Assembly: GCA_020438905.1 (NCBI GenBank)
Contig: JAGQTQ010000062.1
Coordinates: forward strand, 1 to 33,202
Length of the DNA stretch: 33,202 nucleotides
Reading direction: 5' to 3'
Source of the DNA: Mycobacterium sp.
GTDB lineage: Bacteria > Actinomycetota > Actinomycetes > Mycobacteriales > Mycobacteriaceae
A model generated the notes under the pieces. It did no database searches. It worked only from the letters and a program-made list of their open reading frames with translations, and was not told the origin of the DNA. The position numbers and the translations under genes were made by a program. Positions 10,561 to 26,322 of this stretch are shown here, piece by piece. The stretch's first letter is position 1. Each line of letters opens with the position of its first letter.

Positions 10561-10608
10561 CGAGTCAATCCACAGCAAAATCTCAGCAATTGGCGGACAG
10601 AGGTGCCG

Positions 10609-13230
10609 ATGTCGGTGTTGAAACGCGTCGCGCGCTCCGGGTTGGCGACCGTCACGCTGGGCTTGTCGCTGGTCGGGCCGCAGGCCGCCGGGATTGCCGC
10701 GGCCGAATCTCCTGCCGGTGACTCATCGGAGGCGTCGAATCCGCAGCCATCGTCCCAGCGCAGTCCGTCGGGGCAGGCGAGGGCATCTCGAAAGGCTCCG
10801 ATCAGTGGTTCGGTCGCCGGAGTCGGCCGTGGGGGGCGCCCCGGCGACAACCGGCCCGGACCCGCGGCGACCAGCGGTTCGGCCGCGGTCCCCGTTGCGA
10901 TCGCCGAATCGGGATCAGCGGGGCGGGTGCCAGGGCGTCGGGCGCAGCGAGGCGGTTCCACCCTGCCGACAGGGCCGATCGGACAGCTAAGCGCGCCGGT
11001 TCCGGCTACCGGCGAAGGTACCGGCAGCAACGCAGCAAACCCGATGGCCACGCCGGGAACGCCGGGTGCCGCGGCAAGCGTCAACGATCTCAGCGCCCTG
11101 GTACGGCCCGCAGCGCTGCCGGCCCGGCTCACCGCCGCCCAGACGGCCGTCGCCGCGCGGCCGGTCGCCACGATCGGGGTGGCGGTCAACGTGCTCTTCG
11201 ACTCCGCCGCGAATTGGCTGTCCGGCCTGCCCGCCAGCCCGATCGCCGAACTGCTGGAGGGTGCCCTGCTGCTGGTCCGGCGCACTCTGGTCAACCTTTT
11301 TCCGGCCCTCGGCGCAGGACAGTCCACGGTCGAGTCGGGCGAGACCGGCACGGATGCCTACCTGACCGAGGAGGAACTGAACGCCTATCTTCTCGAACTG
11401 GCCGCCCAGCAGTACGCCGGGCTGTTCGGGCAGACCGTCCCGGTGTACGGATACGGGTACGGTCCCTGGCCGCTGTACCTCAGGGCCGACATGGATGCAG
11501 GCGGCGTCCCGTCGGGCACCAACACCCAGGTCGACGGCGTCGACGAGGCCGACTTCGTGGAGACCGACGGCCAGTACATGTACGTCGCGCACAACGGCCG
11601 GTTGACGATCGTGCGCACCGACGACCTGACGGTCGCCTCGGAGTCGGCGCTGTCCGGAGAGGTGGTCGGATCGTTCTTGTCCGGCGACCGGCTGACGGTG
11701 ATCACCCAGACGGGATCGGGCTGGTACGGCCCGATGGTGCGGATGGCCTACGGCTACTGGGGACCGTGGAACCCGCAGACCTCGGTGAGCGTCTATGACG
11801 TCTCGGATCGCGGCGAGCCCGTAGTGGTCAGCGAAACCGTGTTCGACGGGGCCTACCAGGATTCGCGGGCGGTCGACGGTGTGGTCTACCTGGTCCTGCT
11901 GCGATCGGTGGATCTGCCCGCACCGCAGTACACCGAAACCCCGGTGGTCAAGGACCCGGTCGGGGTCATCGGCGATTCCGGCGACGCGCTGCTGAAGATG
12001 CCCTGGGGCGGGTCCGAAATCACCGCTTACCGCACCTATGAGAGCTGGGACTCCTACGTCGCCCGGGTCGGTCCGCAGATCGCGGATCTCGCTCTGGCAC
12101 ATGCCTACACCGTCGACGCCGAGGGCAACATGGTCGATCTCGGCCTGATCGCCGGCGCCGGGGACATCGTGCGTCCGCAGGGCCAGGATCAGCAGACCAT
12201 GATGACGGTGGTGTCGCTGGACTCCGCGGACAACGGGGGCGGCTTCGCCGACTCGGTGGGCAATCTGGTCTCCGCCTACGGCGGCACCGTCTACATGACC
12301 ACCGACGCGGTCTACGTGGCTTCCGGTGCGGACCGCTACACCGACTCGAGCTGGTCCACCGAGACCCGCATCGACCGCTTCGCCGTTGCGGGAACCGATA
12401 TCGACTGGCAGGCCTTCGGCGTCGTGTCCGGAACGCTGATCAACCAGTTCGCCATGGACGAGCAGGACGGGCACCTGCGGGTGGCCACCCACACCAATAG
12501 CTCGCAGTGGGGCGCGGGCACCTCGAGCACCCGCAACGACAACGGCGTCTACATCCTCGACACCGAGGGGGACACCCTCGACGAGGTCGGCCGGCTGACC
12601 GGGCTGGCACCGGGCGAGCAGCTCTACGCCGTCCGGTTCATGGGCGACACCGCCTACCTGGTGACGTTCCTGCAGACCGATCCGCTGTTCGCCATCGACC
12701 TGGCCGACCCGACCGCCCCGGCGCTGCAGGGCGAGCTGATCATCCCCGGGTTCTCCAACTACCTGCAGTCCGCGGGTGAGGGACTGCTGCTCGGCATCGG
12801 CCAGGAGCGTGAGACCGGAGGCTGGGAAAACCATCTGCACGCCAGCCTGTTCGACGTCAGCGACGGCGCCAACCTGACCCAGATCGACCGGGAGTTCCTC
12901 GATTCGGGCTTCCAGTGGTCCTTCTCCGAGGCGCAGTTCGACCATCATGCGCTGCTGTATTCGCCCGAGGACGGGATTCTGGTGGTGCCGGTCTCCGGCA
13001 GTGGCTACGACCCGCAAACGGGCTATCGCGCGGAGAGCTTCCTCGCGGTGTTGCAGCTGACTCCGGAGGGCATCGACGTGCTCGGCGAGATCCATACCGA
13101 TCAGCCGACCGTCCGAACGGTGCGTATCGGCGATGTCCTCTACGCGGTCGGGGACACCTCGGTGACCGCCTACCGGCTCAGCGACCTGGCGGAGATCGGC
13201 CGGACCGACCCGGTGCCTGCGGTGGTTTAG
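10609..13230 (+). CDS. Exported beta-propeller domain protein
   Basis: This 873-residue protein has a signal peptide (KR, then LATVTLGLSLVGPQAAGIAAA) and a disordered Ser/Pro/Gly/Arg-rich linker to about residue 180. A helical stretch follows, then the secreted beta-propeller C-terminal domain family (PF09826) from about residue 300, beginning NTQVDGVDEADFVETDGQYMYV. The repeated blade pattern ('D...VYAV..', 'SVYDVSD', 'LYAVRFMGDTAYLVTF') continues to the end. Its role is unknown; such proteins are secreted or surface-attached. ATG 10609 follows ACAGAGG and the promoter above. It has no clear operon partner upstream; the small exported protein at 13270 starts 39 bp downstream and may be co-transcribed. 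Confidence 0.88.
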   Translation: MSVLKRVARSGLATVTLGLSLVGPQAAGIAAAESPAGDSSEASNPQPSSQRSPSGQARASRKAPISGSVAGVGRGGRPGDNRPGPAATSGSAAVPVAIAESGSAGRVPGRRAQRGGSTLPTGPIGQLSAPVPATGEGTGSNAANPMATPGTPGAAASVNDLSALVRPAALPARLTAAQTAVAARPVATIGVAVNVLFDSAANWLSGLPASPIAELLEGALLLVRRTLVNLFPALGAGQSTVESGETGTDAYLTEEELNAYLLELAAQQYAGLFGQTVPVYGYGYGPWPLYLRADMDAGGVPSGTNTQVDGVDEADFVETDGQYMYVAHNGRLTIVRTDDLTVASESALSGEVVGSFLSGDRLTVITQTGSGWYGPMVRMAYGYWGPWNPQTSVSVYDVSDRGEPVVVSETVFDGAYQDSRAVDGVVYLVLLRSVDLPAPQYTETPVVKDPVGVIGDSGDALLKMPWGGSEITAYRTYESWDSYVARVGPQIADLALAHAYTVDAEGNMVDLGLIAGAGDIVRPQGQDQQTMMTVVSLDSADNGGGFADSVGNLVSAYGGTVYMTTDAVYVASGADRYTDSSWSTETRIDRFAVAGTDIDWQAFGVVSGTLINQFAMDEQDGHLRVATHTNSSQWGAGTSSTRNDNGVYILDTEGDTLDEVGRLTGLAPGEQLYAVRFMGDTAYLVTFLQTDPLFAIDLADPTAPALQGELIIPGFSNYLQSAGEGLLLGIGQERETGGWENHLHASLFDVSDGANLTQIDREFLDSGFQWSFSEAQFDHHALLYSPEDGILVVPVSGSGYDPQTGYRAESFLAVLQLTPEGIDVLGEIHTDQPTVRTVRIGDVLYAVGDTSVTAYRLSDLAEIGRTDPVPAVV

Positions 13231-13269
13231 CCTGGGAAGCGAAGCAATTCAGGCATCCCGGGAGTGAGC

Positions 13270-13569
13270 ATGGCCCTGAAGATCTCCGGTCGCCGGCTGA
13301 TCTGTGTCGCCGTGGGGGTCGCCATCGCGCTGGCCCCGGCGATCGCCCTCAACGCATCGCCGTCGTCCGCGCCGCGGCTGTTGGCCGAATGCAATGACCT
13401 CGTCGACACCACCGACAGCTTCTCGATGGACTGCGTGCCCACCGTCATGCCCGACGTCAGCGATCAGTTGACCGAGGCCGAGGTCGCCGAACCCGGCTGG
13501 AACGCCCGTCCCGGCGGCGGTGGCGGAGCGGGCGCGGGTGCAGGGGCCGGTGGTGGCGGCCACCGCTGA
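13270..13569 (+). CDS. Small exported glycine-rich protein
   Basis: This protein of 99 residues (ATG 13270; GTG 13264 is possible) has an N-terminal signal peptide (KISGRRLICVAVGVAIALAP). The mature region holds two Cys (ECNDLVD and SMDCVPTV), which could form a disulfide. A conserved-looking TEAEVAEPGWNARP follows, and the protein ends in a glycine/alanine tail and HR. No known domain is recognised. GGGAG lies just upstream of the ATG. After the stop, a weak stem (13563-13566/13576-13579) followed by T6 at 13585 may help termination. It converges with the lipoprotein gene at 13616. Confidence 0.72.
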   Translation: MALKISGRRLICVAVGVAIALAPAIALNASPSSAPRLLAECNDLVDTTDSFSMDCVPTVMPDVSDQLTEAEVAEPGWNARPGGGGGAGAGAGAGGGGHR

Positions 13570-13615
13570 TTCGTTGCGGCGCTGATTTTTTCGGGCGCTG
13601 GTTCTGCGGCCCCGA

Positions 13616-14182
13616 TCAACTCGGGCGCAGATCCTCGTCGAGGATTATCTTGGCCCGGTTCAGGTGCTCGACGGCCTTGGCCAGGTAATCCTGGTAGACG
13701 ATGGCATCGTTGGGGTTGCGCGCCAGGACGAACCGCAGACACGCGTGGGTCGCGATGTTCATATCGTCGATCATCCGCTGCAGTTCTGCGGTCAGTTCCG
13801 GATCCGGCGTGGGCAGGTCGCGCTGCAGCCCGATGGCGTTGGCGTCGTGCAGTTGCTGACATCCGGAGCGGACCGCCGCCTCGTCGCCGGCCTCCGCGGC
13901 CTCGGAGACCTGTTGCAGCGCCCTGGCCGACCTCTTGAAGTGCTCGCCGGCCAGTGCCTCCCATTCCCGCATGGCCTGGGCCCGGTCCGCGGTCCCCGCG
14001 GGGCCGGGTGTGGTGGTGGTCACCGGAGTCGGCGAAGTGCTCGTGACGGTCGTCACGGTTGCGGTGTTCGGCGATTGCGAAGGCGATGGCGAAGGGGTGC
14101 CGGTGGTGCCGCATCCGCCCGAGGTCAGGGCCACCGCGGCGAGGGCCCCGGCGATGCGGAAGGCGGGCGTGAGCACCATGTC
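13616..14182 (-). CDS. Putative lipoprotein with helical domain
   Basis: This is a 188-residue exported protein. A hydrophobic N-terminus ends SGGC (Cys23), a lipobox-like site, although -3 is Ser rather than Leu. A Thr/Ser/Pro linker (about residues 27-60) leads to a helical domain with two Cys (GCQQL and ACLRF) that could pair. The function is unknown. Start choice is uncertain: ATG 14182 has GGAG only 2 bases away, while GTG 14179 is spaced better; both give the same mature protein. It is divergent from the WS/DGAT gene at 14279, with under 100 bp between them. Confidence 0.75.
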   Translation of the reverse strand, partial: DMVLTPAFRIAGALAAVALTSGGCGTTGTPSPSPSQSPNTATVTTVTSTSPTPVTTTTPGPAGTADRAQAMREWEALAGEHFKRSARALQQVSEAAEAGDEAAVRSGCQQLHDANAIGLQRDLPTPDPELTAELQRMIDDMNIATHACLRFVLARNPNDAIVYQDYLAKAVEHLNRAKIILDEDLRPS

Positions 14183-14278
14183 TCCACCGTAAGCTGTGGA
14201 GACCAACCGGGCTTTTCAGCCCCAGCCTGGCCTATCGTTTGACCCAGGCGGTCGAGGCAGCAACGGAAGGCGGGGCCC

Positions 14279-15703
14279 ATGGAACTGATATCGCCGGTCG
14301 ATTCGATGTTCCTGCTCGCCGAATCGCGCGAGCATCCCATGCACGTCGCCGGGCTGCAGCTCTTCGAGCCGCCGGAGGGCGCCGGACCTGATTTCCTCCG
14401 AGACATGTATCAGAACCTGATCAATCGGGATGACGTCGCGCCGACGTTCCGCAAGCATCCCGCCGAGCTGCTGGGCGGAATCGCCAACGTCACTTGGGCT
14501 TTCGACCGTGACATCGACCTCGAGTACCACATGCGCCGTTCGGCTCTGCCGTCTCCGGGGCGGGTGCGGGAGTTGCTGGAGCTCACCTCGCGACTGCACG
14601 GTTCGCTCCTGGATCGCCACCGTCCGCTCTGGGAGAGCAATCTCGTCGAGGGCCTCAACGACGGCCGGTTCGCCGTCTACACCAAGATCCATCACGCCCT
14701 CGTCGACGGTGTCAGCGCCATGCGGATGATGCGCCGGTCGCTGTCCACCGACGCCGATGATCACGAGATGCGGGTCGCCTGGGGCACCAACGGGCGGTCT
14801 TCGTCCAGTCGCCGGCCTCGTCCCTCCCGGCTGGGCGAGTTGGTGAAGATCGCCGAGTCCCTCGTGGGGTTGGGGCCGTCGGCTCTCTACCTGGCGCAAA
14901 AGGGTTTGTTCGAGCAGCAGCTGACACTTCCGGTCGGCGCGCCGCGGACGATCTTCAACGTGCCGATCGGCGGTGCCCGGCGCTGCGCCGCGCAGTCCTG
15001 GCCGATCCAGCGGTTCACGGCCATCAAGACCGCCGCCGGCGTCACCCTCAACGATGTCGTTCTGGCGGTGTGCGGCGGTGCCCTGCGGGCCTACTTGATC
15101 GAGCAGGACGCGTTGCCGGACAAGCCGCTCATCGCGATGGTTCCGGTCAGCCTGCGCGACGACGACTCCAGCGGCGGCAACCAGGTCGGGGCGTTGCTGG
15201 CCAGCCTTGCGACCCACCGCGAGGACCCCGCGCAGCGACTGGCCGAGGTCAGCGGGTCGATGCGCAGCAACAAAGAGGTCTTCAAGCAGTTGCCCAAACT
15301 GCAGCAGATGGCGTTGTCGGCCTTCAACGTCTCGCCGCTGCTGCTGTCGATGCTGGCCCCGGCCATCGGATCGGCCGCGCCGCCGTTCAACCTGGTGATC
15401 TCCAACGTGCCCGGTTCGCGAGAGCCGTTGTACTGGAACGGCGCTCGACTCGACGGCAACTATCCGCTGTCGATCGCCCTGGACGGCCAGGCGCTCAACA
15501 TCACGCTGTCCAACAACGCCGATAACCTCGATTTCGGGCTGGTCGGGTGCCGGCGCAGTGTGCCGAGCCTGCAGCGCCTGCTCGGCCATCTGGAGGACTC
15601 GCTGACCGACCTCGAAGCCGCGGTGGGGGTCGGGCAGAAGAAAGCGGCGGCGCCCCGTCGCAGGAGCGCCGCCGCATCGTCCAAGCGTTCTAAGGGCAGG
15701 TGA
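14279..15703 (+). CDS. Wax ester synthase / diacylglycerol acyltransferase (WS/DGAT)
   Basis: This 474-residue enzyme transfers a fatty acyl group from acyl-CoA to diacylglycerol or a fatty alcohol, making triacylglycerol or wax ester for lipid storage. The catalytic motif HHALVDG is at residues 138-144 (His139 is the likely base), and the second family motif NLVISNVPGSREPLYWNGA lies in the C-terminal domain. It opens with ISPVDSMFLLAE, typical of mycobacterial members. The C-terminus is an Arg/Lys/Ala-rich tail after about residue 450, probably flexible. The 3' end overlaps the LpqH-like gene on the other strand by 14 bp. The closest M. tuberculosis relative by position is probably Rv3740c. 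Confidence 0.93.
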   Translation: MELISPVDSMFLLAESREHPMHVAGLQLFEPPEGAGPDFLRDMYQNLINRDDVAPTFRKHPAELLGGIANVTWAFDRDIDLEYHMRRSALPSPGRVRELLELTSRLHGSLLDRHRPLWESNLVEGLNDGRFAVYTKIHHALVDGVSAMRMMRRSLSTDADDHEMRVAWGTNGRSSSSRRPRPSRLGELVKIAESLVGLGPSALYLAQKGLFEQQLTLPVGAPRTIFNVPIGGARRCAAQSWPIQRFTAIKTAAGVTLNDVVLAVCGGALRAYLIEQDALPDKPLIAMVPVSLRDDDSSGGNQVGALLASLATHREDPAQRLAEVSGSMRSNKEVFKQLPKLQQMALSAFNVSPLLLSMLAPAIGSAAPPFNLVISNVPGSREPLYWNGARLDGNYPLSIALDGQALNITLSNNADNLDFGLVGCRRSVPSLQRLLGHLEDSLTDLEAAVGVGQKKAAAPRRRSAAASSKRSKGR

Positions 15704-16199
15704 CCTCGATCTCGAACGGCTTGGTGGTGGGCTGCATGGGGTTGGCCATGTCCACTCCGGTGGCGGTTCCGCTGACCTTGTAGGTCTTGTCGTTCTTGGT
15801 GGCCGAGGCGCTGCCACCCGGCGCGCCCTCCTGGAAGCCCAGTGCGACGCCGTCGACGTTGCCCAGGCCCACTGAAGTCACGGTGGAGGCGTCCTCGGAC
15901 ATCACCACGGCGATACCGGTGGTGGCGTCGCCGATCCCGATGTTGAGGTTGCCGCCGTTGGTGGCGCACACGACCTGGCCCTCGATGTCCTTGGGCTGGC
16001 CGTCGATGGTGACCGTCGCCGTTCCCGCACCGGCCGATGCGCTGATCGGGCCGGAGGAGACCGTGGCCGCGCCCGCCGAGGTCGTCGCCGTCGCGCCCTC
16101 GCCGGCTTTCTTCTCCGACGACTTGTCGCTGGAACAGCCGATCAAGCCGGCCATCAGGACCGCAGCGCCCCCGACGCCGACCACCAAACCACGTATCAC
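15690..16199 (-). CDS. lpqH: LpqH family lipoprotein (19-kDa antigen)
   Basis: This is a 169-residue envelope lipoprotein. GTG 16199 gives a signal peptide ending LIGC, so Cys22 is acylated; this start lines up with the M. tuberculosis LpqH start (VKRG there, VIRG here), and a GAAGGGA motif lies at suitable distance. A Ser/Thr/Ala-rich linker, where LpqH is glycosylated in tuberculosis, precedes the domain carrying VTIDGQ, VVCATNGGNLNIGIGDATTG, VGLGNVDGV and GTATGVDMANPMQP. Two Cys (VVCAT and VTCP) likely form a disulfide. LpqH is a TLR2 ligand whose cell function is unsettled. In M. tuberculosis lpqH adjoins Rv3762c; here it lies about 15 kb away, so this may be a paralogue. Confidence 0.92.
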   Translation of the reverse strand: MIRGLVVGVGGAAVLMAGLIGCSSDKSSEKKAGEGATATTSAGAATVSSGPISASAGAGTATVTIDGQPKDIEGQVVCATNGGNLNIGIGDATTGIAVVMSEDASTVTSVGLGNVDGVALGFQEGAPGGSASATKNDKTYKVSGTATGVDMANPMQPTTKPFEIEVTCP

Positions 16200-16307
16200 G
16201 GACATTCCCTTCGTCGCAGTGGCCCACGTCAGGGGCCACCGATTTGCCAATTGACGAACGGGTAATGCCCATTCCCCGCCGGATCTAATCACCGGGACCT
16301 TGGTTAG

Positions 16308-17537
<1,230 letters not shown>

Positions 17538-17588
17538 GCGGCGCCCAAAGGCCCTGAGGGTCGAGCGCAGGCAGGCGAGGGCGCGGGG

Positions 17589-17636
17589 AAAAACCGAAAA
17601 ATGAAGGACCGAAAGCCGCAGCCTCTGTGGTCCTTC
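17589..17636 (-). terminator. Intrinsic terminator of the reverse transcriptase operon
   Basis: On the minus strand GAAGGACC (17636-17629) pairs with GGTCCTTC (17610-17603), a perfect 8-bp stem with an 18-base loop. ATTTTTCGGTTTTT (17602-17589) follows at once, a good U-tract. It stands about 60 bp after the RT stop. For the plus-strand tgt transcript the same stem has no U-tract, so it acts mainly for the minus strand. Confidence 0.72.
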
Positions 17637-17639
17637 GGA

Positions 17640-17695
17640 GAATTCCGCCCGGAAGCGGGGTCCGCGCCCTCAGCGGAATTCAATCGCGCTGCGCG
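17640..17695 (-). other. Structured 3' region after the RT gene (two hairpins)
   Basis: Just after the RT stop (17699), CGCG (17685-17688/17692-17695) closes a 3-base loop. GAATTCCGC (17640-17648) then pairs perfectly with GCGGAATTC (17673-17681), with a small inner GCGG/CCGC stem at 17655-17665. Together with the terminator there are three stems in about 95 bases. It may be part of the terminator or a structured RNA used by the RT. The rest of the tgt-RT gap (17538-17588) holds no recognisable gene. Confidence 0.5.
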
Positions 17696-17698
17696 GTA

Positions 17699-19027
17699 TC
17701 AACGCAAGTTGCGCAGGTGCACCAACGACGTCAGGCCGAACTCGCCGTGCAGCATCCGGGGCGGCACCTGCCGGAAACCGCGGACACCGAGGCGTCCCGT
17801 GGCGGCCTGGGCCACCTTTCGGGCGATCCGGAAGTCCAGGTCCTTCAGCACCCCGCGATCGGTGGTGTTCTCCAACACCACCGACAAGCCCTGAACCGCA
17901 AAGGGATTCGTCACATCCAGCATGACGTTGGTGGCGGCGACGAGGTGGCGTGCCCGTTCGGCGGGCGCAAGTGAGGCCAGAGCGGGGACGGTCCCGTCGA
18001 TCCGGTCCGAAACCCGTGCGACCAACCGGCGCAGATGATGCGGTCCGACGGCCATCGTGCCGGCGTGGAACACCGACAGGCCCAGGCAGTCGATCCGGTT
18101 GCCGCCCAGATAGGCGGGATCCCGCGTCGAAGCCATTCCGTTGCCGCTGAGTGCGGTGCGCACTTCCTTGGCCGGTTTGCGCCGCACGCCCAGGCCATCG
18201 AGGAGGGTGTCGATCCGGGCGTCGACCTCGTTGATCGCGGCCAGATCGGGATGGGCGATGAGGAAGTCGTCGTTGTAGCGGGCGTAGAAGATCCCCTCGA
18301 CGCTCAGGATCGCCCGGTCCATCGGCACCACAGCGAGATTGGCCAGCATCGGGACGATCGGGGTGCCCATGGCCACCCCGTGCAGTCGGGTGAATTGCGT
18401 CCCATCCTGATCCCGGACGACCGGCCGGGCCAGGCCGGTGATGAGGTTCCAGGTCCGTTCGGAGATGCCGCCGGAGCTTCCCAGCGAGGCGACTTCACGC
18501 AGGATGGGCCACAGCGGGGCGTCGGGCCCCACCGGCAGAGTATCGCCGTACTTCTCGAAATCGGACTGCAGGACGTACAGCGGCGGGCCGTTGGGTCCGA
18601 CCCGCTTGCGATGGTTGCGGACGAAGTCGGCCAGTGCCCGCATGGCCGTCACGTTCGTCACTCCGGGCAGATAGGAATAGACCCCGGGCAGGCCGTAGCA
18701 GCGCGCGTTGCGGGAAAGTAGTTGGTAGAGAGCAGAACCCACGACGTGGTCGATGAAGGCGGGCATGTGCGCGGCGCGGCTCTTGCCCTTGGTCTCCAGA
18801 ATCCACAGGTCAACGGGTTCGGGTCGGTAGGTCCCCGCGGCGACGCTGTGGGCGATGGCTCGCGCCAGGGACCGTCGCTTGGTCGCGGTGTCGAAGAAGG
18901 TGACTCCGCTGCCCGCCTCGGCATACGCCATCCCGCGTTGCCGGCGCTTCTCGAAGATCCGCAGGATGGCGTCTTCGTAGGTGTCCGGATCGGCCAGCAG
19001 TCGTTCGACGTCGACGGGCTCAGCCAC
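17699..19027 (-). CDS. Free-standing reverse transcriptase (RNA-directed DNA polymerase), unclassified group
   Basis: This is a 442-residue RT-fold protein with the catalytic motifs in order. Finger motifs are ETKGKSRAAHMPAFIDHVVGS and LPGVYSYLPG. Motif A is SDFEKYGDTLP with Asp156, motif B is HGVAMGTPIVPMLANL (residues 216-231), and motif C is YNDD (Tyr251-Asp254) in FYARYNDDFLIAH. A motif D/E region includes LGVRRKPAKEV and CLGLSV (Cys314). All three metal-binding Asp are present, so it should be active. After motif E about 125 residues form a helical thumb-like end. No maturase X, HNH, nitrilase, protease or CRISPR-related domain is attached. The GTG start overlaps the membrane-protein stop by 8 bp, so it is translationally coupled. 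It does not fit retrons, DGRs or group II introns; it may belong to the unknown-group/defence RTs, but I cannot place it. Confidence 0.88.
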   Translation of the reverse strand: MAEPVDVERLLADPDTYEDAILRIFEKRRQRGMAYAEAGSGVTFFDTATKRRSLARAIAHSVAAGTYRPEPVDLWILETKGKSRAAHMPAFIDHVVGSALYQLLSRNARCYGLPGVYSYLPGVTNVTAMRALADFVRNHRKRVGPNGPPLYVLQSDFEKYGDTLPVGPDAPLWPILREVASLGSSGGISERTWNLITGLARPVVRDQDGTQFTRLHGVAMGTPIVPMLANLAVVPMDRAILSVEGIFYARYNDDFLIAHPDLAAINEVDARIDTLLDGLGVRRKPAKEVRTALSGNGMASTRDPAYLGGNRIDCLGLSVFHAGTMAVGPHHLRRLVARVSDRIDGTVPALASLAPAERARHLVAATNVMLDVTNPFAVQGLSVVLENTTDRGVLKDLDFRIARKVAQAATGRLGVRGFRQVPPRMLHGEFGLTSLVHLRNLR

Positions 19028-21077
19028 TGAACTTCCAGAGTTTCACGGCGCGAATCCATTCGCGCAGAGAGTCCGGGTCGGCGCCGGTCGGGAGGACGAA
19101 CAGCAGTCGCAGCGCCACGCCCGCATACACCGGGGTCATCCACTGCTCGCCGAGCCGGACCAGATCGTTGCCCTCTCCGGCGCTGGCCAGCGCGGCCGGC
19201 AGGGCCTGGGCCAGGACTCCGTTGTCGAGGTCGCGCATATCCCTTGCACCGCTGAGGGTTTCGGTATCGAACACGATGCCTTCGGGGAAGATTCCCCGGA
19301 AATCGTTGATCAAGGTGTCGAGGTCTCTGGGCTGCTCCGTGACGGCGCCGCCGGGGAAGATCCGCCTGTCGGCGGTGGCCCGTTCGCGGGCGGCACGTCC
19401 GTCGGCCGCCGCGAATGACGTGGACGAACCGCGGCCCGCAGCGCAGCCGGTGAGTTCCTGCAACTCCAGGTGGTCTCGTGGCTCGGGGTCTTCGTTCCCG
19501 CACCGCCGGTAGTAGAGCAGGATCTCCGGGGAGCGGAACGCGACATGGCCTCGTCCGTCGAAGTGGTTGTCCACCAGTGTCACAACGGCGGACTTCTGCT
19601 TGGGCAGGATCGACTTCGGCATCGAGACGGTCCCCACGACCGCAGGTCCGGGTTCCGCGGCCAGCGAGGTCATCCAGTCCCGCACCGGCACCAGGGTGGG
19701 CAGCGGCAGTGTCCTGCGGTCACGCAGATGCTGGAGATTGATCAGGACGATCAGTTGCACGGTCATCGCCGCCGTGATCTGGATCAGGTCCCCGGCGGGA
19801 TTGGGGTTGATCCAGACCAGGGTCAGCAGCACCACGAGCAGTACCAGTGTGGCGATGTGGGTGGTGAACAGGCCCTCGGCGAACAGCCGGATCTGGTAGG
19901 CCCCGATGAAGCTGCGCAGCACGAACAATGGCAGCAGTGCGAGCAGGAAACTGACCGGGACGTCGTGCAGGACGAGAATTCCCAGCCCTGCGGCCAGCGT
20001 CCAGAAGAACAGCGCGATCACCGGCGCCGTCCAGAGCAACTTCCGGAAGAACCGCAACTGCAGTTCGCGCATCCCCGGGGCCCGGCGAAGCCGCACCAGG
20101 TCGAAGTAGAAGATCCCGGCGCTGTCGTAGGTGCCCCGGAACAGGGGCATGACCAGATAGAAGAACTCGAAGGCGTCGATGTGCTGCCAACTCGTCAGAC
20201 CGGCGGTGAGGTCGAACGTGCGAGTGTCGGTGCCGTAGAAACCGACGAGGGCGAGAACCAGGACGGCGTCGAGGCGCAGGCTCAGCCCGGACAGCGTGGC
20301 CTGGAATCCGGTCCAGAGCGGAATAGCCGGAAGATGGCGCCAGAACCGGTGCTCGTCGCTGCTGTACCTCGGCCGCAGCCCCATCAGCCGGTAGATCTCC
20401 AGACAGAAGTGGACGGTGATCCAGATGGCCAGCGCGTTGGACACCACGATCGCGGTGATGATCGCGGCGGTGGGGTACAGGTAGAACCCGACGCCCAGGA
20501 TCGCCAGTTGGGCGAGGGTCGGCACGAAGATCGCCCAGGCCGGCTTGTAGACCCGGCGGGTCGCGTATATCCCCGAGTGCAGCACCCGGACCGGCAGGTC
20601 GATGGCCAGCTCGAGAACGACCAGGAACGCGTAGAGGCGGGACACCGGGTCCCCGCCGGAGGCGTTCAACGCGATCACCACCGCTCCGCCGGCGATCGTC
20701 GAGATCAGCGCGACGAACACCGACAAGACCAGCCAGCGGCCTATTTCCAGTTCGCTGGCCGAGCGGTCCCCGGCGCGGGCGAAGGTCCGCAGCCTTTCCC
20801 GCATGATCTCCAGGAGCCCCCACCAGCCGCCGGAGACGATCAGGCTGCCGGCCCGCAGCACCATGACGGTGAAGGCCGCCACCCCGCCGAGGCTGGAGAG
20901 CAGGATGAAGAACTCCGCGACGTGCACCAGGAACCGCACGGTGGCGATGAGGAAGGGGTAGCGCAGCCGGTAGCGGAAGTAGGGGAGGATCCGGCCGGTG
21001 AGAAGGCACGGGTAGAGCGAGACCGGTTGGCGGGTGGCGCGCGCCGTGCGCTCGAACCAGCGGTCGATCTCGTTCAC
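19020..21077 (-). CDS. Polytopic membrane protein with soluble C-terminal domain (RT operon partner; possible MOP-flippase-like)
   Basis: This protein has 685 residues. Residues about 35-450 contain 10-12 hydrophobic helices (for example FFILLSSLGGVAAFTVMVL, FLLALLPLFVLRSFIGAYQI and ATLVLLVVLLTLVWI), with a layout reminiscent of MOP/Wzx-type lipid flippases; this is inference, since no signature motif is certain. From about residue 452 a soluble tail of about 230 residues follows, of unknown fold, with VVTLVDNHFDGRGHVAF, YRRCGNEDP, TGCAAGRGSS and IVFDTETL. GTG 21077 is chosen because GGAGAG stands about 9 bases upstream; ATG 21119 would add 14 residues and overlap the RNase T2 start. A 6-codon reading frame (ATG 21094 to TGA 21074) ends in a GTGA overlap with this start and may couple translation. 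It is the first gene of the RT operon. Confidence 0.85.
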   Translation of the reverse strand: MNEIDRWFERTARATRQPVSLYPCLLTGRILPYFRYRLRYPFLIATVRFLVHVAEFFILLSSLGGVAAFTVMVLRAGSLIVSGGWWGLLEIMRERLRTFARAGDRSASELEIGRWLVLSVFVALISTIAGGAVVIALNASGGDPVSRLYAFLVVLELAIDLPVRVLHSGIYATRRVYKPAWAIFVPTLAQLAILGVGFYLYPTAAIITAIVVSNALAIWITVHFCLEIYRLMGLRPRYSSDEHRFWRHLPAIPLWTGFQATLSGLSLRLDAVLVLALVGFYGTDTRTFDLTAGLTSWQHIDAFEFFYLVMPLFRGTYDSAGIFYFDLVRLRRAPGMRELQLRFFRKLLWTAPVIALFFWTLAAGLGILVLHDVPVSFLLALLPLFVLRSFIGAYQIRLFAEGLFTTHIATLVLLVVLLTLVWINPNPAGDLIQITAAMTVQLIVLINLQHLRDRRTLPLPTLVPVRDWMTSLAAEPGPAVVGTVSMPKSILPKQKSAVVTLVDNHFDGRGHVAFRSPEILLYYRRCGNEDPEPRDHLELQELTGCAAGRGSSTSFAAADGRAARERATADRRIFPGGAVTEQPRDLDTLINDFRGIFPEGIVFDTETLSGARDMRDLDNGVLAQALPAALASAGEGNDLVRLGEQWMTPVYAGVALRLLFVLPTGADPDSLREWIRAVKLWKFSG

Positions 21078-21102
21078 GGGGCGAGGCTCTCCATGGGGGT
21101 GT

Positions 21103-21112
21103 TGAATAGGTT
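21103..21112. promoter_or_regulatory. Possible shared core of two divergent promoters
   Basis: TAGGTT (21107-21112, plus strand) fits TANNNT and would start transcription at the ATG at 21118, a leaderless message for RNase T2. On the minus strand TATTCA (21108-21103) could serve as the -10 for the membrane-RT operon. Only 40 bp separate the two genes, so the promoters must overlap. This is pattern-based. Confidence 0.35.
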
Positions 21113-21117
21113 GCGCC

Positions 21118-21870
21118 ATGAAGCGAGGCGACGCAGCCGTATTCTCCATCTCTGCCGCACTGGCGGCCACCGTGGTGATCGCCGTCGCGTACAGCCTGCT
21201 GGTTCTGGATCGCAAGACCGTCGAGCCGCCGGTGGGGGCCGCCGACAGCACCTCCAGTCTGCTGGTGGTGACGTGGGGTCCCAGCCTGTGCAAGGTCGAG
21301 CAGTCCAATCCGGGGTGCCGTTCCGGTCACGTCGAGCGGATGGGCCGGACCTTCGTCCTGCACGGTCTGTGGCCGCAGCCGTCCAGTCAGCAGTACTGCG
21401 AACTGCCCAAACGTGCCGCCGACCGCAAACGCAACCCGGTGCCACTGCCCAGGGACCTTCAGAAGAGCCTGAAGGCGCTGATGTCGGACTCGGCGGTGAT
21501 GACCTCACACGAGTGGTACGCGCACGGAACCTGTTCCGGGGTGGCGCCGCCGGAGTACTTCGGCATCGCCGCGGCGCTGACCGACCAGGCAGTGCGGGTG
21601 CTGGACCCGGTGTTCGACAAAGCCTCGCCCCAGGTCTCGTCGAAGTCGTTGCGCGAGGCTTTCGACGCCGAGTTCGGCCGCGGTGCCGGACGGCGGATCG
21701 GGCTGGACTGCCGCAATGCCAACGGCCAGGGATCGGTGGCCTACGAGGTGCGGCTGTCCCTGCCGGCCGTGGTGGAACTCAATGCGAACAACGGCCCGAT
21801 GTCGCTGGGGGAGGCTCTGGCCAAGGGCCCGGCGGTGCCCGCCGGTTGCGGGCAGGGCCGCGTGCCCTGA
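21118..21870 (+). CDS. Ribonuclease T2 family protein (secreted or membrane-anchored)
   Basis: This 250-residue protein has an N-terminal hydrophobic segment (FSISAALAATVVIAVAYSLL), a signal anchor or signal peptide. The two RNase T2 active-site boxes are CAS I, FVLHGLWP (His82), and CAS II, SHEWYAHGTCSG (His131, Glu132, His136). T2 enzymes cut single-stranded RNA through 2',3'-cyclic phosphates, usually outside the cytoplasm. The usual Lys just before the second His of CAS II is Ala135 here, which may lower activity. Several Cys (SLCKVE, PGCRSG, QYCEL, GTCSG, LDCRN, AGCGQ) suggest disulfides. It diverges from the RT operon by 40 bp, and the P450 gene follows 20 bp later. Confidence 0.9.
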   Translation: MKRGDAAVFSISAALAATVVIAVAYSLLVLDRKTVEPPVGAADSTSSLLVVTWGPSLCKVEQSNPGCRSGHVERMGRTFVLHGLWPQPSSQQYCELPKRAADRKRNPVPLPRDLQKSLKALMSDSAVMTSHEWYAHGTCSGVAPPEYFGIAAALTDQAVRVLDPVFDKASPQVSSKSLREAFDAEFGRGAGRRIGLDCRNANGQGSVAYEVRLSLPAVVELNANNGPMSLGEALAKGPAVPAGCGQGRVP

Positions 21871-21890
21871 GGGCAGGGCAGACTGGTCCG

Positions 21891-23105
21891 GTGACTCCTG
21901 CCCCCCAATCGCTGCTGATGCAACTGCTCGACCCGGGCAACCGCCCCGATCCGTACCCGGTTTTCCGGCAATTGCGGGAGAGCTCCCCGGTTCGGCTCCC
22001 GGACTCCAACGTCGTCGTCTTCGCCGGATTCGAGGATTGCGAGAAGGTGCTTCGCCACCCCGACTCGTGCAGCGACCGGCTCAAGTCGACCATCGCCCAG
22101 CGGGCCGCAGCCGCCGGTGAGGAGGTCAGGCCGTTCGGAACGCCCGGCTTTCTGTTCCTCGACCCGCCCGACCACACCCGTCTGCGCAGGCTGGTCAGCA
22201 AGGCGTTCTCGCCCAAAGTGGTGAAATCCATGGAACCGGGTATCGCCGAACTCGTCGACGGGCTGCTGGCCAACGCCGGCGCCGACGGGAGCTTCGAGGC
22301 GATCTCCGAGTTGGCCTACCCGCTGCCCGTCGCGGTGATCTGCCGGTTGCTCGGGGTGCCGATCGAGGACGAACCCAAGTTCAGCTGGGCGTCGACGATG
22401 CTGGCGCAGGGATTGGATCCTTTCATCGCCTTCAGCGGTCAGCCGCAGGGATTCGAGGAGCGTCTACAGGCCGGTCTGTGGCTGCGGGAGTACCTGCGCG
22501 ACCTGGTCCGCCACCGCCGCGCCCACCCCGGGGAGGACCTGATGTCCGGGCTGATCGCCGTCGAGGAGGCCGGTGACCAGCTCACCGAGGAGGAGATCGT
22601 CGCGACCTGCAACCTGCTTCTCATCGCCGGCCATGAGACGACGGTGAACCTGATCGCCAACGCGATCCTGGCGATGCTGCGTCACCCGCAGCACTGGAGC
22701 GCGCTGAGCGAGGATCCCGGCCGGTCATCGGCCATCGTCGAGGAGACACTGCGTTACGACCCGCCGGTTCAGCTGGTCGGGCGGGTCGCGGGACAGGACA
22801 TGAACATCGGGGACACGGTGGTTCCCAAGGGGGACACCATGATGCTGCTGCTGGCCGCGGCGCACCGCGACCCGGCGGTCACCGAACGCCCCGACGAGTT
22901 CGACCCGACCCGCCCGTCGATCCGCCATCTCGCGTTCGGCCTCGGTCCGCATTTCTGCCTCGGCTCGCCACTGGCCCGGCTGGAGGCCGCCGTCGCGCTC
23001 TCGGCGGTGACCAAACGCTTCCCCGGGGCGCGCCTGGCCGCGGAGCCCGACTACAAGCCGCATGTGACACTGCGCGGCATGGCCAGCCTGCACGTCGCGG
23101 TGTAG
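21891..23105 (+). CDS. Cytochrome P450
   Basis: This is a 404-residue soluble bacterial P450. The heme-binding motif is FGLGPHFCLGSPLAR with Cys356 as thiolate ligand. The I-helix oxygen-activation motif is AGHETT, the K-helix ExxR is EETLR, and HTRLRRLVSKAFSP is the C-helix region. It inserts one oxygen atom into an organic substrate, with electrons from a ferredoxin and reductase not encoded here. The substrate is unknown. The start GTG 21891 lies 20 bp after the RNase T2 stop, and the saccharopine-dehydrogenase-like gene begins 9 bp after its end, so the three may share a transcript. Confidence 0.95.
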   Translation: MTPAPQSLLMQLLDPGNRPDPYPVFRQLRESSPVRLPDSNVVVFAGFEDCEKVLRHPDSCSDRLKSTIAQRAAAAGEEVRPFGTPGFLFLDPPDHTRLRRLVSKAFSPKVVKSMEPGIAELVDGLLANAGADGSFEAISELAYPLPVAVICRLLGVPIEDEPKFSWASTMLAQGLDPFIAFSGQPQGFEERLQAGLWLREYLRDLVRHRRAHPGEDLMSGLIAVEEAGDQLTEEEIVATCNLLLIAGHETTVNLIANAILAMLRHPQHWSALSEDPGRSSAIVEETLRYDPPVQLVGRVAGQDMNIGDTVVPKGDTMMLLLAAAHRDPAVTERPDEFDPTRPSIRHLAFGLGPHFCLGSPLARLEAAVALSAVTKRFPGARLAAEPDYKPHVTLRGMASLHVAV

Positions 23106-23114
23106 CTTTCGCCC

Positions 23115-24326
23115 ATGAGGATTCTGCTGGTGGGTGCCGGAGGTGTGGGTTCGGCGTTCTGCGCCATCGCCAAGCGAAGGGATTTCTTCGAGCGGATCGT
23201 GGTCGCCGACTATGACGAGGTCCGAGCCCAGCAGGCGGCAGACGCCGTCGATGACCCCCGGTTCACCGCCACCCGGGTGGACGCGTCCTCCGAGGAGGAC
23301 GTCGCGGCCCTGATTCGCGGTTACGGCGTGACGCACGTGGTCAACGCGGTGGACCCGCGCTTCGTGATGTCCATCTTCAACGGCGCGCTGGCCGGCGGGG
23401 CGGACTACCTCGACATGGCGATGAGCCTGTCTCGGCGGCACCCGGATAAGCCCTACGAGCTGACCGGGGTGAAGCTGGGCGACGAGCAGTTCGAGGCCGA
23501 GCCGAACTGGAAGGACGCCGGCCGGCTGGCGATGGTCGGCTTCGGAGTGGAACCCGGTCTGGCCAACGTGTTCGCCCGTTACGCGGCAGATCACCTGTTC
23601 AGCGAGATCGACGAACTGGGCGTCCGGGACGGAGCGAACCTGACCGTCGCGGGATACGAGTTCGCCCCGTCCTTCTCGATCTGGACGACCATCGAGGAGT
23701 GCCTCAATCCTCCGGTGATCTGGGAGAAGGACCGCGGCTGGTTCGTCACCGAACCCTTCAGTGAGCCTGAGGTTTTCGACTTCCCCGAGGGAATCGGCCC
23801 GGTCGAGTGCGTCAACGTCGAGCACGAAGAAGTGCTGCTGATGCCGCGGTGGATCGACTGCAAGCGCGCCACGTTCAAATACGGTCTGGGCGAGGAATTC
23901 ATCGACGTTCTGAAGGTGCTGCACAAACTCGGGTTGGACAGCACCGAGAAGGTGCGGGTCTCCGGCGTGGAGGTCGCACCGCGCGATGTGGTCGCCGCCT
24001 GCCTGCCCGATCCCGCCACCCTGGGGCCGAAGATGCGCGGCAAGACCTGCGCGGGACTGTGGGTGACCGGCACCGGCAAGGACGGGCTCCCCCGATCGAC
24101 CTACCTCTACCACGTCGTGGACAACGAGTGGTCGATGGCCGAATACGGCCACCAGTGCGTGGTCTGGCAGACCGCGATCAATCCCGTTGTGGCACTGGAA
24201 CTCCTGGCAAACGGAACCTGGAGCGGTGTTGGCGTATTAGGCCCGGAGTGCTTCGATTCGGTGCCGTTCCTGGAATTGCTGACCTCCTACGGTTCACCCT
24301 GGGGACAGCGGGAACTGGCCGTCTAG
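23115..24326 (+). CDS. Saccharopine dehydrogenase family protein
   Basis: This 403-residue protein begins with a Rossmann NAD(P) motif VGAGGVGSAF, followed by a strand ending IVVADYD. The catalytic-domain segment FGVEPGLANVFARYAADHLF is typical of the saccharopine dehydrogenase/carboxynorspermidine dehydrogenase group. These enzymes reduce or oxidise C-N bonds of amino acids or polyamines; here the substrate is not known. It starts 9 bp after the P450 gene, which hints at a joint pathway. Its 3' end overlaps gluQRS on the other strand by 4 bp. Confidence 0.88.
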   Translation: MRILLVGAGGVGSAFCAIAKRRDFFERIVVADYDEVRAQQAADAVDDPRFTATRVDASSEEDVAALIRGYGVTHVVNAVDPRFVMSIFNGALAGGADYLDMAMSLSRRHPDKPYELTGVKLGDEQFEAEPNWKDAGRLAMVGFGVEPGLANVFARYAADHLFSEIDELGVRDGANLTVAGYEFAPSFSIWTTIEECLNPPVIWEKDRGWFVTEPFSEPEVFDFPEGIGPVECVNVEHEEVLLMPRWIDCKRATFKYGLGEEFIDVLKVLHKLGLDSTEKVRVSGVEVAPRDVVAACLPDPATLGPKMRGKTCAGLWVTGTGKDGLPRSTYLYHVVDNEWSMAEYGHQCVVWQTAINPVVALELLANGTWSGVGVLGPECFDSVPFLELLTSYGSPWGQRELAV

Positions 24327-25231
24327 GCGGTGCCTTGATCTGGGTCGGGCCGGTACACCCACGGCTCGCGCGGAAGCCGTGCCGGGTCGAACAGCGCCAG
24401 CAATTCGGCCATGTCGGCGCCCGGCCGACCCAGCGATGTGGTGATCAGTGACCACGCCCGGTCGGCGCCTAGGTCGGCGAGAGTCACCGCGCCGTCGCGT
24501 TTGGCCAGCCGCTTGCCGTCGCCGTTCAGGGCCAGTGGCACATGGCCGTACACCGGTTCGGGATAGCCGAGCAGGGCCGCCAGGTAGGCCTGTCTCGGGG
24601 AGGATGAGAGCAGATCGTCACCGCGGACGACCTGGTCGATGCCGGCGTGGGCGTCATCGACCACCACCGCGAGGTTGTAGGCCGCAACCCCGTCGCCCCG
24701 GCGCAGCACGAAATCGTCCACGACCCCGGTGTAGCTGCCGTGGACCAGGTCGGTGACGGTGTACTCGGTGGCGGCGGCCCGTAGCCTGAGGGCGGGCGGG
24801 CGACCCGCGGCCAGGTGCTGTTCGCGCTGGGTTCCCGTCAGGGTCCGGCAGGTGCCCGGATAGGCCCCCTCCGGGGCGTGCGGCGCCCGCGGCGCGTTGA
24901 GGATGTCCTTTCTGCTGCAGAAGCATTCGTAGACCAGATTCCGCTCCATGAGCCCGTCGATCACGGCGCCGTAGCGGTCCGGGTGCTCGGACTGCCACTC
25001 CGGAGGCTCGTCCCATCTCAGCCCGATCGCGGCGAGATCGGCCAGTTGGCGCCGGCCCACGTCGGCATGGGTGCGGTCGTCGAGATCCTCGACCCGGATC
25101 AGGAAGCGGCGACCGGTCGAGCGGGCGAACAGCCAGGCGAGTACCGCGGTGCGCAGGTTGCCGATGTGCAGGTCGGCTGACGGACTCGGCGCGAACCGGC
25201 CGGCGCCGCGCGGTTCGGGGGTGGTGTGCAT
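24323..25231 (-). CDS. gluQ: Glutamyl-Q tRNA(Asp) synthetase (GluQRS)
   Basis: This 302-residue truncated relative of GluRS lacks the anticodon-binding domain. It attaches glutamate to the queuosine base at position 34 of tRNA-Asp. It has the class I HIGH-like motif SADLHIGNLR after RFAPSP and the KMSKS-like RLAKRDG near the end. Zinc-binding Cys are in ECFCSRKD and YPGTC. The start GTG/ATG region at 25231 is the first codon before HTTPEPRGAGRFAPSP. Its presence implies queuosine in this organism's tRNA and so pairs functionally with tgt at 16308, although they are not in one operon. Confidence 0.93.
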   Translation of the reverse strand: MHTTPEPRGAGRFAPSPSADLHIGNLRTAVLAWLFARSTGRRFLIRVEDLDDRTHADVGRRQLADLAAIGLRWDEPPEWQSEHPDRYGAVIDGLMERNLVYECFCSRKDILNAPRAPHAPEGAYPGTCRTLTGTQREQHLAAGRPPALRLRAAATEYTVTDLVHGSYTGVVDDFVLRRGDGVAAYNLAVVVDDAHAGIDQVVRGDDLLSSSPRQAYLAALLGYPEPVYGHVPLALNGDGKRLAKRDGAVTLADLGADRAWSLITTSLGRPGADMAELLALFDPARLPREPWVYRPDPDQGTA

Positions 25232-25249
25232 CGCAAGAGAATGTACGAC

Positions 25250-25281
25250 GATGGTCGTTGTGGATGATGGTCGTTGTGGAC
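25250..25281 (+). repeat. 16-bp tandem duplication across the ligC start
   Basis: GATGGTCGTTGTGGAT (25250-25265) is followed directly by GATGGTCGTTGTGGAC (25266-25281). The unit length is not a multiple of three, and the second copy contains the probable GTG start. The copy upstream offers out-of-frame or in-frame ATG codons (25251, 25264, 25267), so the start of LigC is ambiguous. Confidence 0.85.
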
Positions 25282-26322
25282 CTCCCCCTTGCCCCGCCGG
25301 TCCAGCCCATGTTGGCCAAGGCGCAGACCAGGGTGCCGGACACCGACGGCGAGTGGTCCTACGAACCCAAGTGGGATGGTTTCCGCGCGGTGGTATTCCG
25401 CGACGGCGACGAGGTGGTGATCCAGTCCCGCAGCGGCAAGGATTTGGGCCGGTACTTTCCGGAGCTGGTAGCGGACATGCGCGAGCGACTGGCGACGCGG
25501 TGCGTGCTCGACGGGGAGGTGGTGGTGCCGCGCCGGATCGACGGGCGCACCCGGCTGGACTGGGATTCGCTGGCGCAGCGCATCCACCCCGCGGCGAGCC
25601 GGATCCGGCTGCTCGCCGACCAGACGCCCGCGCATTTCATCGGGTTCGACGCCCTGGCTTCCGGGAATCGGGCACTGACGGGTGAGATGTTCCGGGCACG
25701 TCGCGAAGCCCTGCTGGCCGCGGTGAGCCGTGGTGGTCGGTGTCATGTGACTCCGACCACCGAGGATCCGGGGCTGGCGGCGCAATGGTTCACGACATTC
25801 GAGGGCGCCGGACTCGACGGGGTGATCGCCAAACGGCTCGCCGGGACCTATCAGCCCGGCCGGCGCGACATGATCAAGGTCAAGCACGCCCGCGACGCGG
25901 ACTGCGTGGCGATGGGTTACCGCATCCACAAGAGCGGTACCGGTCTGGGATCGGTACTGCTGGGCCTCTACGGCCAGTACGACGAACTTCGGATGGTCGG
26001 GGGCGCGACATCGTTCAACGCCAAGGACAGGGTTCGCCTGCTGGCGGAACTCGAGCCGCTGCGTGAGGGAGCCGACGTCGTCAAGGAGGGGGAGCCGAGC
26101 AGGTGGAACTCGGCCGCCGACAAGCGCTGGATCCCGATCCGCCCGGAGCGGGTCGCCGAGGTGGCCTACGACCAGATGGAAGGGGTCGGGAACGGACGAC
26201 GATTCCGCCACGCCGTGCGTTTCCTGCGCTGGCGCCCGGACCGCGATCCGTCGAGCTGCACTTTCGGCCAACTCGACGTCCCGCCGGACTACGACGTCAC
26301 CGACGTGCTGGGGACGCTCTGA
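25276..26322 (+). CDS. ligC: ATP-dependent DNA ligase LigC
   Basis: This is a 348-residue ATP-dependent ligase. The catalytic lysine is Lys32 in EPKWDGFRA, which becomes adenylated. Nucleotidyltransferase motifs follow: LDGEVVVP, FIGFDALA, LDGVIAKRL and MIKVKHARDAD. An OB-fold domain covers the C-terminal third. LigC takes part, with PolD and LigD, in back-up repair of DNA ends and gaps in mycobacteria. GTG 25276 aligns with the start of M. tuberculosis LigC (VQLPVMPPV there, VDLPLAPPV here); ATG 25267 or 25264 would add a few residues. Its stop overlaps the polD start by 1 bp (TGATG). Confidence 0.93.
   Translation: MDLPLAPPVQPMLAKAQTRVPDTDGEWSYEPKWDGFRAVVFRDGDEVVIQSRSGKDLGRYFPELVADMRERLATRCVLDGEVVVPRRIDGRTRLDWDSLAQRIHPAASRIRLLADQTPAHFIGFDALASGNRALTGEMFRARREALLAAVSRGGRCHVTPTTEDPGLAAQWFTTFEGAGLDGVIAKRLAGTYQPGRRDMIKVKHARDADCVAMGYRIHKSGTGLGSVLLGLYGQYDELRMVGGATSFNAKDRVRLLAELEPLREGADVVKEGEPSRWNSAADKRWIPIRPERVAEVAYDQMEGVGNGRRFRHAVRFLRWRPDRDPSSCTFGQLDVPPDYDVTDVLGTL

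Follow-up and report, generated by a model that had tools for sequence, protein, structure and literature searches.

A reverse transcriptase, a structured RNA, a membrane protein and an RNase T2 in mycobacteria look like an RNA-to-DNA system at the cell membrane

Two described reverse transcriptase (RT) systems come closest to the one reported here. In DRT9, a U-rich stretch of the RNA templates poly-dA, and its authors name membrane proteins as a possible target of nucleic acids; the available text presents DRT9 as an RT and an RNA, sometimes accompanied by SLATT proteins (PMC12483538). DRT10, in the available part of its report, comprises an RNA, a SLATT membrane protein and an RT that adds DNA repeats from an A-B-A' template in a telomerase-like manner (PMC12632851). 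Here we describe a locus in a stretch of 33,202 nucleotides (nt) from Mycobacterium sp. (GCA_020438905.1, contig JAGQTQ010000062.1, positions 1-33,202, forward strand; the whole stretch is called the window). It consists of an RNase T2 gene on the plus strand, divergent from the genes for a membrane protein and an RT on the minus strand, and a structured RNA 3' of the RT gene. This unit, or module, looks like an RNA-to-DNA system at the cell membrane that has not been described before; its job is possibly defence against viruses.

The unit resembles DRT10 in joining an RT, a membrane protein and a structured RNA, and in having an RNA with a possible alignment and template (A-B-A') layout, as far as the available text of PMC12632851 allows the comparison. 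It differs in its membrane partner, which has a MOP-like predicted fold and no Pfam match to E 10, whereas that of DRT10 is a SLATT protein; in the position of the RNA, which lies downstream of the RT here but, in the available text, upstream of the membrane gene in DRT10; in having an RNase T2; and in its RT, which reaches 29.5 bits on the UG17 profile. With DRT9, as described in the portion available, the unit shares an RT and a structured RNA with a U-rich stretch, and DRT9 is among the best structural matches of the module RT. The module RNA follows the RT, and 40 of its 42 linkers contain two U runs, which may be copied; the module RT scores 57.7 bits on the Drt9 profile, and the available text describes DRT9 without an RNase T2. 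Group II intron RTs and the G2L4 RT are nearest to the module RT by fold and by a profile comparison with four single RTs, but the module RT has neither a maturase-level score nor an Rfam intron RNA, and it has constant membrane partners. We class the unit with the RT-RNA-membrane protein kind, and not as DRT9 or DRT10. A literature search for RTs with RNase T2, flippase, MATE or unknown-group (UG) membrane partners found no description of the unit in the text available from its sources, and a mention in a survey of UG RTs is possible. The unit adds an RT clade that lies outside all classes tested here, an RNA that is not in Rfam 15, and partners of two types, an RNase T2 and a membrane protein of MOP-like predicted fold, neither of which had a link to RTs in the literature searched.

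Composition and inheritance of the unit

A preliminary description of this DNA had presented a two-gene operon of a 442-residue RT and a 685-residue membrane protein. That pair is real and its coordinates were borne out, but it is not the whole unit, as an RNase T2 gene, encoded on the opposite strand, and an RNA beyond the RT stop codon are constant parts too (Table 1). A search of one genome per species, which reaches close relatives only, returned 41 relatives of the RT. Thirty-eight come from Mycobacterium, Mycolicibacterium, Mycobacteriaceae or other actinobacterial records (65-92% identity), and three from Rhizobiaceae (about 54%), so the unit recurs in another phylum. Together with the window these make 42 loci. 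One of them, L024, is a Mycobacterium-like contig that was placed, probably by misbinning, in an assembly of Bifidobacterium breve.

Wherever a locus extends far enough, the membrane protein gene lies immediately 5' of the RT; the RNase T2 gene is its divergently oriented neighbour in 38 of 41 loci, and the RNA is found 3' of the RT in 42 of 42. The three loci without the RNase T2 gene are cut by contig ends: L028 begins within the RT, and L013 and L021 are cut within the membrane protein gene. The RT alignment (A1) lacks L028, and those of the membrane protein (A2) and RNase T2 (A3) lack all three. The 8-bp overlap of the RT start with the membrane protein stop, also claimed earlier, is real and recurs in relatives, at 4-17 bp in 40 of 40 loci; the count took the start nearest to 8 bp, so the exact RT starts are presumed. 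The four-part composition of the unit is near certain.

We then asked how the parts are distributed over 148 genomes of the window's genus. The RT occurs in 17 of them and the membrane protein in the identical 17; the RNA model (R1) matches these 17 and none of the other 131. RNase T2 is present in 19, namely the 17 module genomes and two more, G098 and G106. By coordinates, each of these 17 genomes carries the four parts on a single contig within a span of 5 kb. The RT and the membrane protein thus travel together, and separation of the pair in most genomes was not seen. In G106 (locus L063) the RNase T2 gene abuts tgt; in the window, the RT, membrane protein and RNA lie between these two genes. 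In G098 (locus L062, RNase T2 from 8417) the flanks match those of module loci such as L007, with no RT, membrane protein or RNA, and the RNase T2 gene is some genes away from the module's position in L007. The membrane protein, RT and RNA are therefore absent together in both genomes. The start codon of the orphan RNase T2 gene of L063 (about 9572-10333) overlaps the end of tgt.

Wider searches scored few first-look candidates per genome, and distant relatives may have been missed. In the window's phylum the RT was found in 2 of 396 genomes, both of the window's genus (4 candidates scored per genome), and in its order in 2 of 150, the same two genomes (up to 11 candidates). The Rhizobiaceae sample gave 3 of 297, all already known (5 candidates), and in the phylum of Rhizobiaceae the membrane protein was found in 1 of 398, again an already known copy (2 candidates). 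Eight plasmid records that matched the RT at 24.8-27.1% identity are other RTs, four of them annotated as group II. The distribution is patchy: 17 of 148 genomes in the genus, 3 of 297 in Rhizobiaceae, and 21 groups of flanking context among the 42 loci. Sequence distances of the parts are correlated, with Spearman coefficients of 0.62-0.83 over 39 loci (Mantel p 0.001, without control for the host tree), and of 0.40-0.74 over the 36 loci that remain without Rhizobiaceae.

Table 1. Positions of the parts of the unit and of their features in the window
Feature	Position	Strand	Basis or remark
RNase T2 gene	21118-21870	+	PF00445, 250 aa
Conserved N-terminal transmembrane anchor of RNase T2, about residues 7-30	21136-21207	+	single hydrophobic peak; flanked by R3, D5, D31
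Membrane protein gene	19020-21077	-	685 aa, GTG start
About 12 predicted transmembrane helices, MATE/WzxE/MurJ-like predicted fold (MOP superfamily)	19713-21077	-	model and Foldseek
Predicted soluble C-terminal alpha/beta region, about 220 residues	19023-19700	-	DSSP of model
Reverse transcriptase gene	17699-19027	-	442 aa, GTG start
RT motif A aspartate D156	18560-18562	-	invariant, 41/41
RT motif C YNDD, residues 251-254	18266-18277	-	invariant, 41/41
Promoter-like boxes TTGCGT-18-TTGAAT	17678-17707	-	end 6 nt before first stem of RNA
Structured noncoding RNA	17577-17671	-	about 95 nt, first to last paired base of outer stem
Candidate template: unpaired, U-rich linker containing the direct repeat UUUUUC-GG-UUUUUC	17587-17602	-	sequence

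The reverse transcriptase and its RNA

The residues of motifs A and C, and G221 and T222 of the motif B stretch, are invariant in all 41 aligned RTs, the window's included. This agrees with the earlier statement that the chemistry should be intact, and the RT looks active. It is also far more conserved than its partners: between the window and the Rhizobiaceae locus L033, identity is 54.5% for the RT, 37.9% for the membrane protein and 36.9% for RNase T2.

To place the RT, we scored it against the class profiles of the PADLOC 2023 release (UG, Abi, retron and RT-Cas). Its top score among the best 25 of 49 matches was 60.3 bits, on a generic RT model, with 57.7 on Drt9, 40.4 on UG4 and 29.5 on RT_UG17; the RT of L033 reached 43.3 bits on these RT profiles. 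Nineteen reference RTs were scored too, and those of the Drt9, AbiP2, Drt4 and retron classes reached 382-731 bits on their own class (Drt9, L117, 523.3; AbiP2, 552.3 and 563.7; Drt4, 666.5; retrons, 382-731). The module RT reached member level for none of the PADLOC 2023 classes. Membership of DRT9 (UG28) was rejected at 57.7 bits against 523.3 for the member L117, that of DRT10 (UG17) at 29.5 bits on RT_UG17, and that of RT-Cas on its profile scores. The retron class was rejected at 27 bits on the NCBIfam St85 model, whose cut-off is 235, and retron RTs form a separate clade in the tree described below. Group II intron RTs were likewise rejected: on the maturase model TIGR04416 (cut-off 300) the module RT scored 52.6 bits and that of L033 51.5, as against 407.3 for a true member, L068. 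No Rfam family, and so no intron RNA, was found at gathering score within window positions 9000-26000. The RT matched no class profile of diversity-generating retroelements; no search for template and variable repeats or for an accessory protein was made. The Pfam, NCBIfam and PADLOC scans returned only a sub-threshold RVT_1 and RT models below cut-off, and none of the group II, retron, Cas1 or nitrilase domains whose absence had been noted before.

Comparison of single sequences with hhalign gave E values of 1.7e-9 for the group II RT L068, 1.7e-7 for a DRT9 RT, 5.3e-4 for a retron RT and 3.2e-3 for AbiP2. The predicted model of the RT (pLDDT 90.7) matched, in Foldseek, the group II intron RT 6ar1 (E 5.4e-14), the DRT9 RT 9vma (6.2e-14) and the G2L4 RT 9d4s (1.1e-12). 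In a tree of 57 rows, ten module RTs group together as a clade (SH-aLRT 100) with a long stem, which sits unresolved beside group II-like, DRT9 and Abi RTs. We claim no placement for it, because long branches meet, the reference set is without most UG classes and most 'GII' labels are presumed (three of the seven reference RTs tested pass the NCBIfam cut-off). The module RTs are thus a clade of their own, at member level in none of the named classes tested, and the pair is not separate in most genomes, so that neither finding that would have refuted the original suggestion of a candidate new system was made.

The core of the RNA lies 60-145 nt beyond the RT stop in all 42 loci. Its pattern is exact in 34 and slightly altered in 8; L015 and L038 read ATAGAGG. 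The fold drawn from the RNA alignment (A4) is a 10-pair outer stem around two hairpins, and RNAalifold gave 22 pairs, nine of them with compensatory changes. In a 26-pair version, 96.2% of 1091 cells are paired, as against 91.8 in shuffles. Two-sided change was seen at 10 pairs and in 57 cells, against 5.4 and 12.1 (12 +/- 4) in shuffles, none of 500 being as high, and it fell to 2-4 pairs and 4-16 cells when the partners were slid. Further pair types gave a weaker contrast: 27 were counted against 23.5 in shuffles, and 7 of the 500 shuffles had at least as many. The comparison is biased towards the structure, which was drawn from the same sequences. Between Mycobacterium and Rhizobiaceae the apical part hardly varies, and no Rfam family matched the RNA at threshold in window positions 17400-17900, or in 9000-26000.

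A promoter-like element (a TTGCG-type box, 16-18 bases and TWNNNT) precedes the outer stem by 3-8 nt in 38 of 42 loci. In 200 shuffles such boxes occurred 0.27 times on average and at most 3, for a pattern that was fitted after the sequences had been viewed. In the window, the first box overlaps the last RT codons; a consensus promoter scan of the region called no promoter.

In 40 of 42 loci, the linker between hairpin P3 and the closing strand of the outer stem has two U runs, 2-5 bases apart. The mean length of the longest direct repeat per linker is 5.5 nt, against 3.6 when shuffled, and the letter after both U runs agrees in 35 of 40 (C/C in 30, and G/G in 5, including three related Rhizobiaceae) and differs in 5. 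The repeat is suggestive only of a template. With the RNA, its likely ends and a candidate template now defined, the system is directly testable. A second, degenerate copy of the RNA was found in genome G018 (L118, 6105-6223, minus strand, 43.6 bits), on a contig other than that of the intact module. By eye it keeps hairpin P3 and has largely lost the outer stem, and no module protein was detected in the 12 kb around it.

The membrane protein and RNase T2

Mechanical reading gives the membrane protein an open reading frame (ORF) of 762 residues that begins at 21308, but relatives share a start at the GTG of 21077; read from there, the protein has the 685 residues first assigned to it. Its predicted model (pLDDT 80.7; residues 1-15 and 283-293 below 50) is made of helices, about 12 in all, to approximately residue 454, followed by mixed alpha/beta structure to residue 685 by DSSP. 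The first reading as a polytopic, flippase-like protein with a soluble tail is therefore upheld by the model. MOP-fold proteins are transporters, and Foldseek matched the model to the MATE protein 6hfb (E 2.7e-6), WzxE 9g9o (E 1.6e-4; TM-score on target 0.61) and MurJ 7wax (E 1.3e-3). The 31 PDB matches with E <= 0.001 are all MATE-type or WzxE by title (TM-score on target 0.47-0.61, root-mean-square deviation 7-10). A two-lobed MOP fold of 12 or more helices is thus predicted for residues ~30-454. The likeness to MATE, WzxE and MurJ is confined to this predicted part; the module protein differs from them in lacking any sequence-family match and in its extra soluble region. No family was found for the protein in Pfam (to E 10), NCBIfam, PHROGs or PADLOC, and a profile search against PDB sequences gave no match to E 1. 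The same was true of the soluble region alone in Pfam (to E 10) and in the PDB profile search (to E 1). That region is probably cytosolic, as judged by the even number of helices and the lysine and arginine pattern of the loops.

RNase T2 was identified by PF00445 (E 9.6e-16; 58.9 bits against a cut-off of 26). Both catalytic motifs are present: the catalytic residues H82, W85, E132 and H136, and six cysteines, are invariant in 39 of 39 sequences, and H131 is kept in 35 and is Y in the other four. In these respects it resembles its family; it differs in its conserved transmembrane anchor and its tie to an RT, 17 of the 19 carriers in the genus having the module. Because of the anchor and the cysteines we take the enzyme to be extracytoplasmic. 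Within the anchor region, R3, V8 and L15 are conserved in 39 of 39 module sequences, D5 and D31 in 38, and S12 and S26 in 36. The two orphan enzymes, L062 and L063, have D5, S12 and S26 changed and R3 and L15 kept; each keeps three of the seven positions (R3, V8 and L15 in L062; R3, L15 and D31 in L063). This pattern lends weak support, as there are only two orphans, to a contact between the anchor and the membrane protein.

Possible functions and genomic surroundings

The four parts are inherited as one unit and the active-site residues are conserved. Tentatively, and with less than even confidence, we propose a four-part RT system at the cytoplasmic membrane, in which a DNA product of the RT and its RNA controls the membrane protein-RNase pair, perhaps against phage. 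Beyond co-inheritance, each step of the following chain is inferred. The RNA, expressed from its own promoter, would bind the RT, which would copy the U-rich linker into A-rich, perhaps tandem-repeat DNA, as in DRT9 and DRT10. The membrane protein, translated together with the RT, would sense the DNA, or the loaded RT-RNA complex, through its cytosolic C-terminal domain. The MOP-like protein, holding RNase T2 through the conserved transmembrane helix, would then change state and give the nuclease access to RNA. The likeliest use would be an abortive type of antiphage defence that ends in the destruction of RNA or in failure of the membrane. We regard as unlikely a more specific version, in which a telomerase-like RT with its own template RNA, whose direct repeats flank a short spacer, makes tandem A-rich DNA as a second messenger, and the MOP-type protein gates the anchored RNase T2; if true, it would be an RT system whose effector sits outside the cytoplasm. 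More generally, the proposed mechanism would bear on how RT products act on membranes, a possibility raised by the DRT9 authors in the available text of PMC12483538. The patchy distribution counts in favour of this mechanism.

Several observations weigh against it. The RNase T2 appears to be extracytoplasmic, which leaves its route to intracellular RNA unexplained; two genomes keep this enzyme alone, and their orphans retain a membrane anchor with R3 and L15, so that the presence of an anchor is no sure sign that the enzyme touches the membrane protein. RNA distances track those of RNase T2 (Spearman 0.83) more than those of the RT (0.62). Single-sequence folding of five RNAs was weak (z -2.9 to 0), and for two of the five, L014 and L022, the minimum fold differs from the proposed one. 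The linkers of L005 and L006 lack the two U runs; linkers in general are short and U-rich and come from related loci, and single-locus shuffle p-values for the repeat range from 0.002 to 0.73. No copy of the RT was found in phage or viral collections, and on plasmids neither the membrane protein nor an RT at member level was found. The flanks, finally, do not look like defence islands. Ten flanking proteins examined with Pfam include beta-lactamase-family, hydrolase, kinase-like, Clp ATPase and ABC transporter proteins, two without a family, and purine salvage proteins in L033. A PADLOC scan of 89 of 110 listed ORFs, from 20 of 21 contexts (L024 left out; E <= 1e-15), found no recurring defence family, each of the 75 matched families being matched by one protein. 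In L033 the module stands between a gene with a phosphoribosyltransferase domain (3024-4421) and genes for adenine deaminase and a nucleoside hydrolase (9473-12174).

The ordinary flanks and the purine-salvage genes of L033 leave a nutrient-related role open. The unit could serve the scavenging of RNA or nucleotides, or the envelope, with RNase T2 cutting extracellular RNA, the MOP-like protein moving a product (a nucleotide, a lipid-linked compound or another), and the RT and RNA acting only as regulators. The six conserved cysteines of the RNase T2 ectodomain, the transporter function of proteins that the partner's model resembles, the deaminase, hydrolase and phosphoribosyltransferase neighbours in L033, the lack of a recurring defence neighbour and the ability of RNase T2 to stand alone all fit this explanation. 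We nevertheless consider it rather unlikely, since the mycobacterial copies lie in many unrelated contexts, the distribution is patchy, and a conserved, active-looking RT with its own RNA is hard to fit to a plain regulator.

DNA repair or end joining has been proposed for some group II-like RTs, and the module RT could be one domesticated for such a task, its membrane neighbours merely localizing it. The Foldseek ranking of 6ar1 and G2L4 9d4s near DRT9 9vma and the best hhalign match, to group II RT L068, point that way. This is quite unlikely, however, given a covarying RNA in every copy, both membrane partners in every copy with enough DNA, and a distribution outside the core genome (17/148).

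Very unlikely, too, is a reading of the RNA as nothing more than an operon terminator or another cis element, with no partnership with the RT. In its favour, a U run comes after hairpin P3, and a terminator scan flags 17623-17607, although with two sites in the region against 1.4 expected. Against it, the outer stem, with its compensatory changes, closes beyond the U run; its apical part hardly changes between Mycobacterium and Rhizobiaceae; a promoter-like element lies upstream; L005 has no U run; and model R1 finds the RNA in 0 of 131 genomes without the RT. That chance, or common descent of a single chromosome region, brought the neighbours together is practically excluded: one flank context recurs in 13 of the 42 loci and a second in 7, but the same four parts keep their order in another phylum and next to flanks that are unrelated.

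The 21 flank groups join loci that share at least two flanking families. Two loci on short contigs, L023 and L024, were possibly mis-split, and L025, L029, L032 and L040 share one flanking family, c17. Locus gene maps were drawn by a simple GC3 rule, which misses or shifts some genes. The 25 listed of the 75 PADLOC families matched in the flanks are of the types JetC, GajB/UvrD helicase, RTasHel, PD-T4-6 and mad6; one flanking protein is a strong JetC (Wadjet-type) match, by far the strongest among the matches listed.

Around the unit in the window, ARAGORN predicts a tRNA-Ser (cga) at 9560-9650, yet no Rfam family reached gathering score in 9000-26000. The tgt gene (queuine tRNA-ribosyltransferase, PF01702; 16308-17537) adjoins the module, as it does in the 13 of 42 loci that share this context. 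An ORF at 24323-25231 on the minus strand resembles, by reading alone, glutamyl-Q tRNA(Asp) synthetase, which is also queuosine-related, and a gene for a protein of the 19 kDa lipoprotein family of mycobacteria (PF05481) lies at 15690-16272 on the minus strand.

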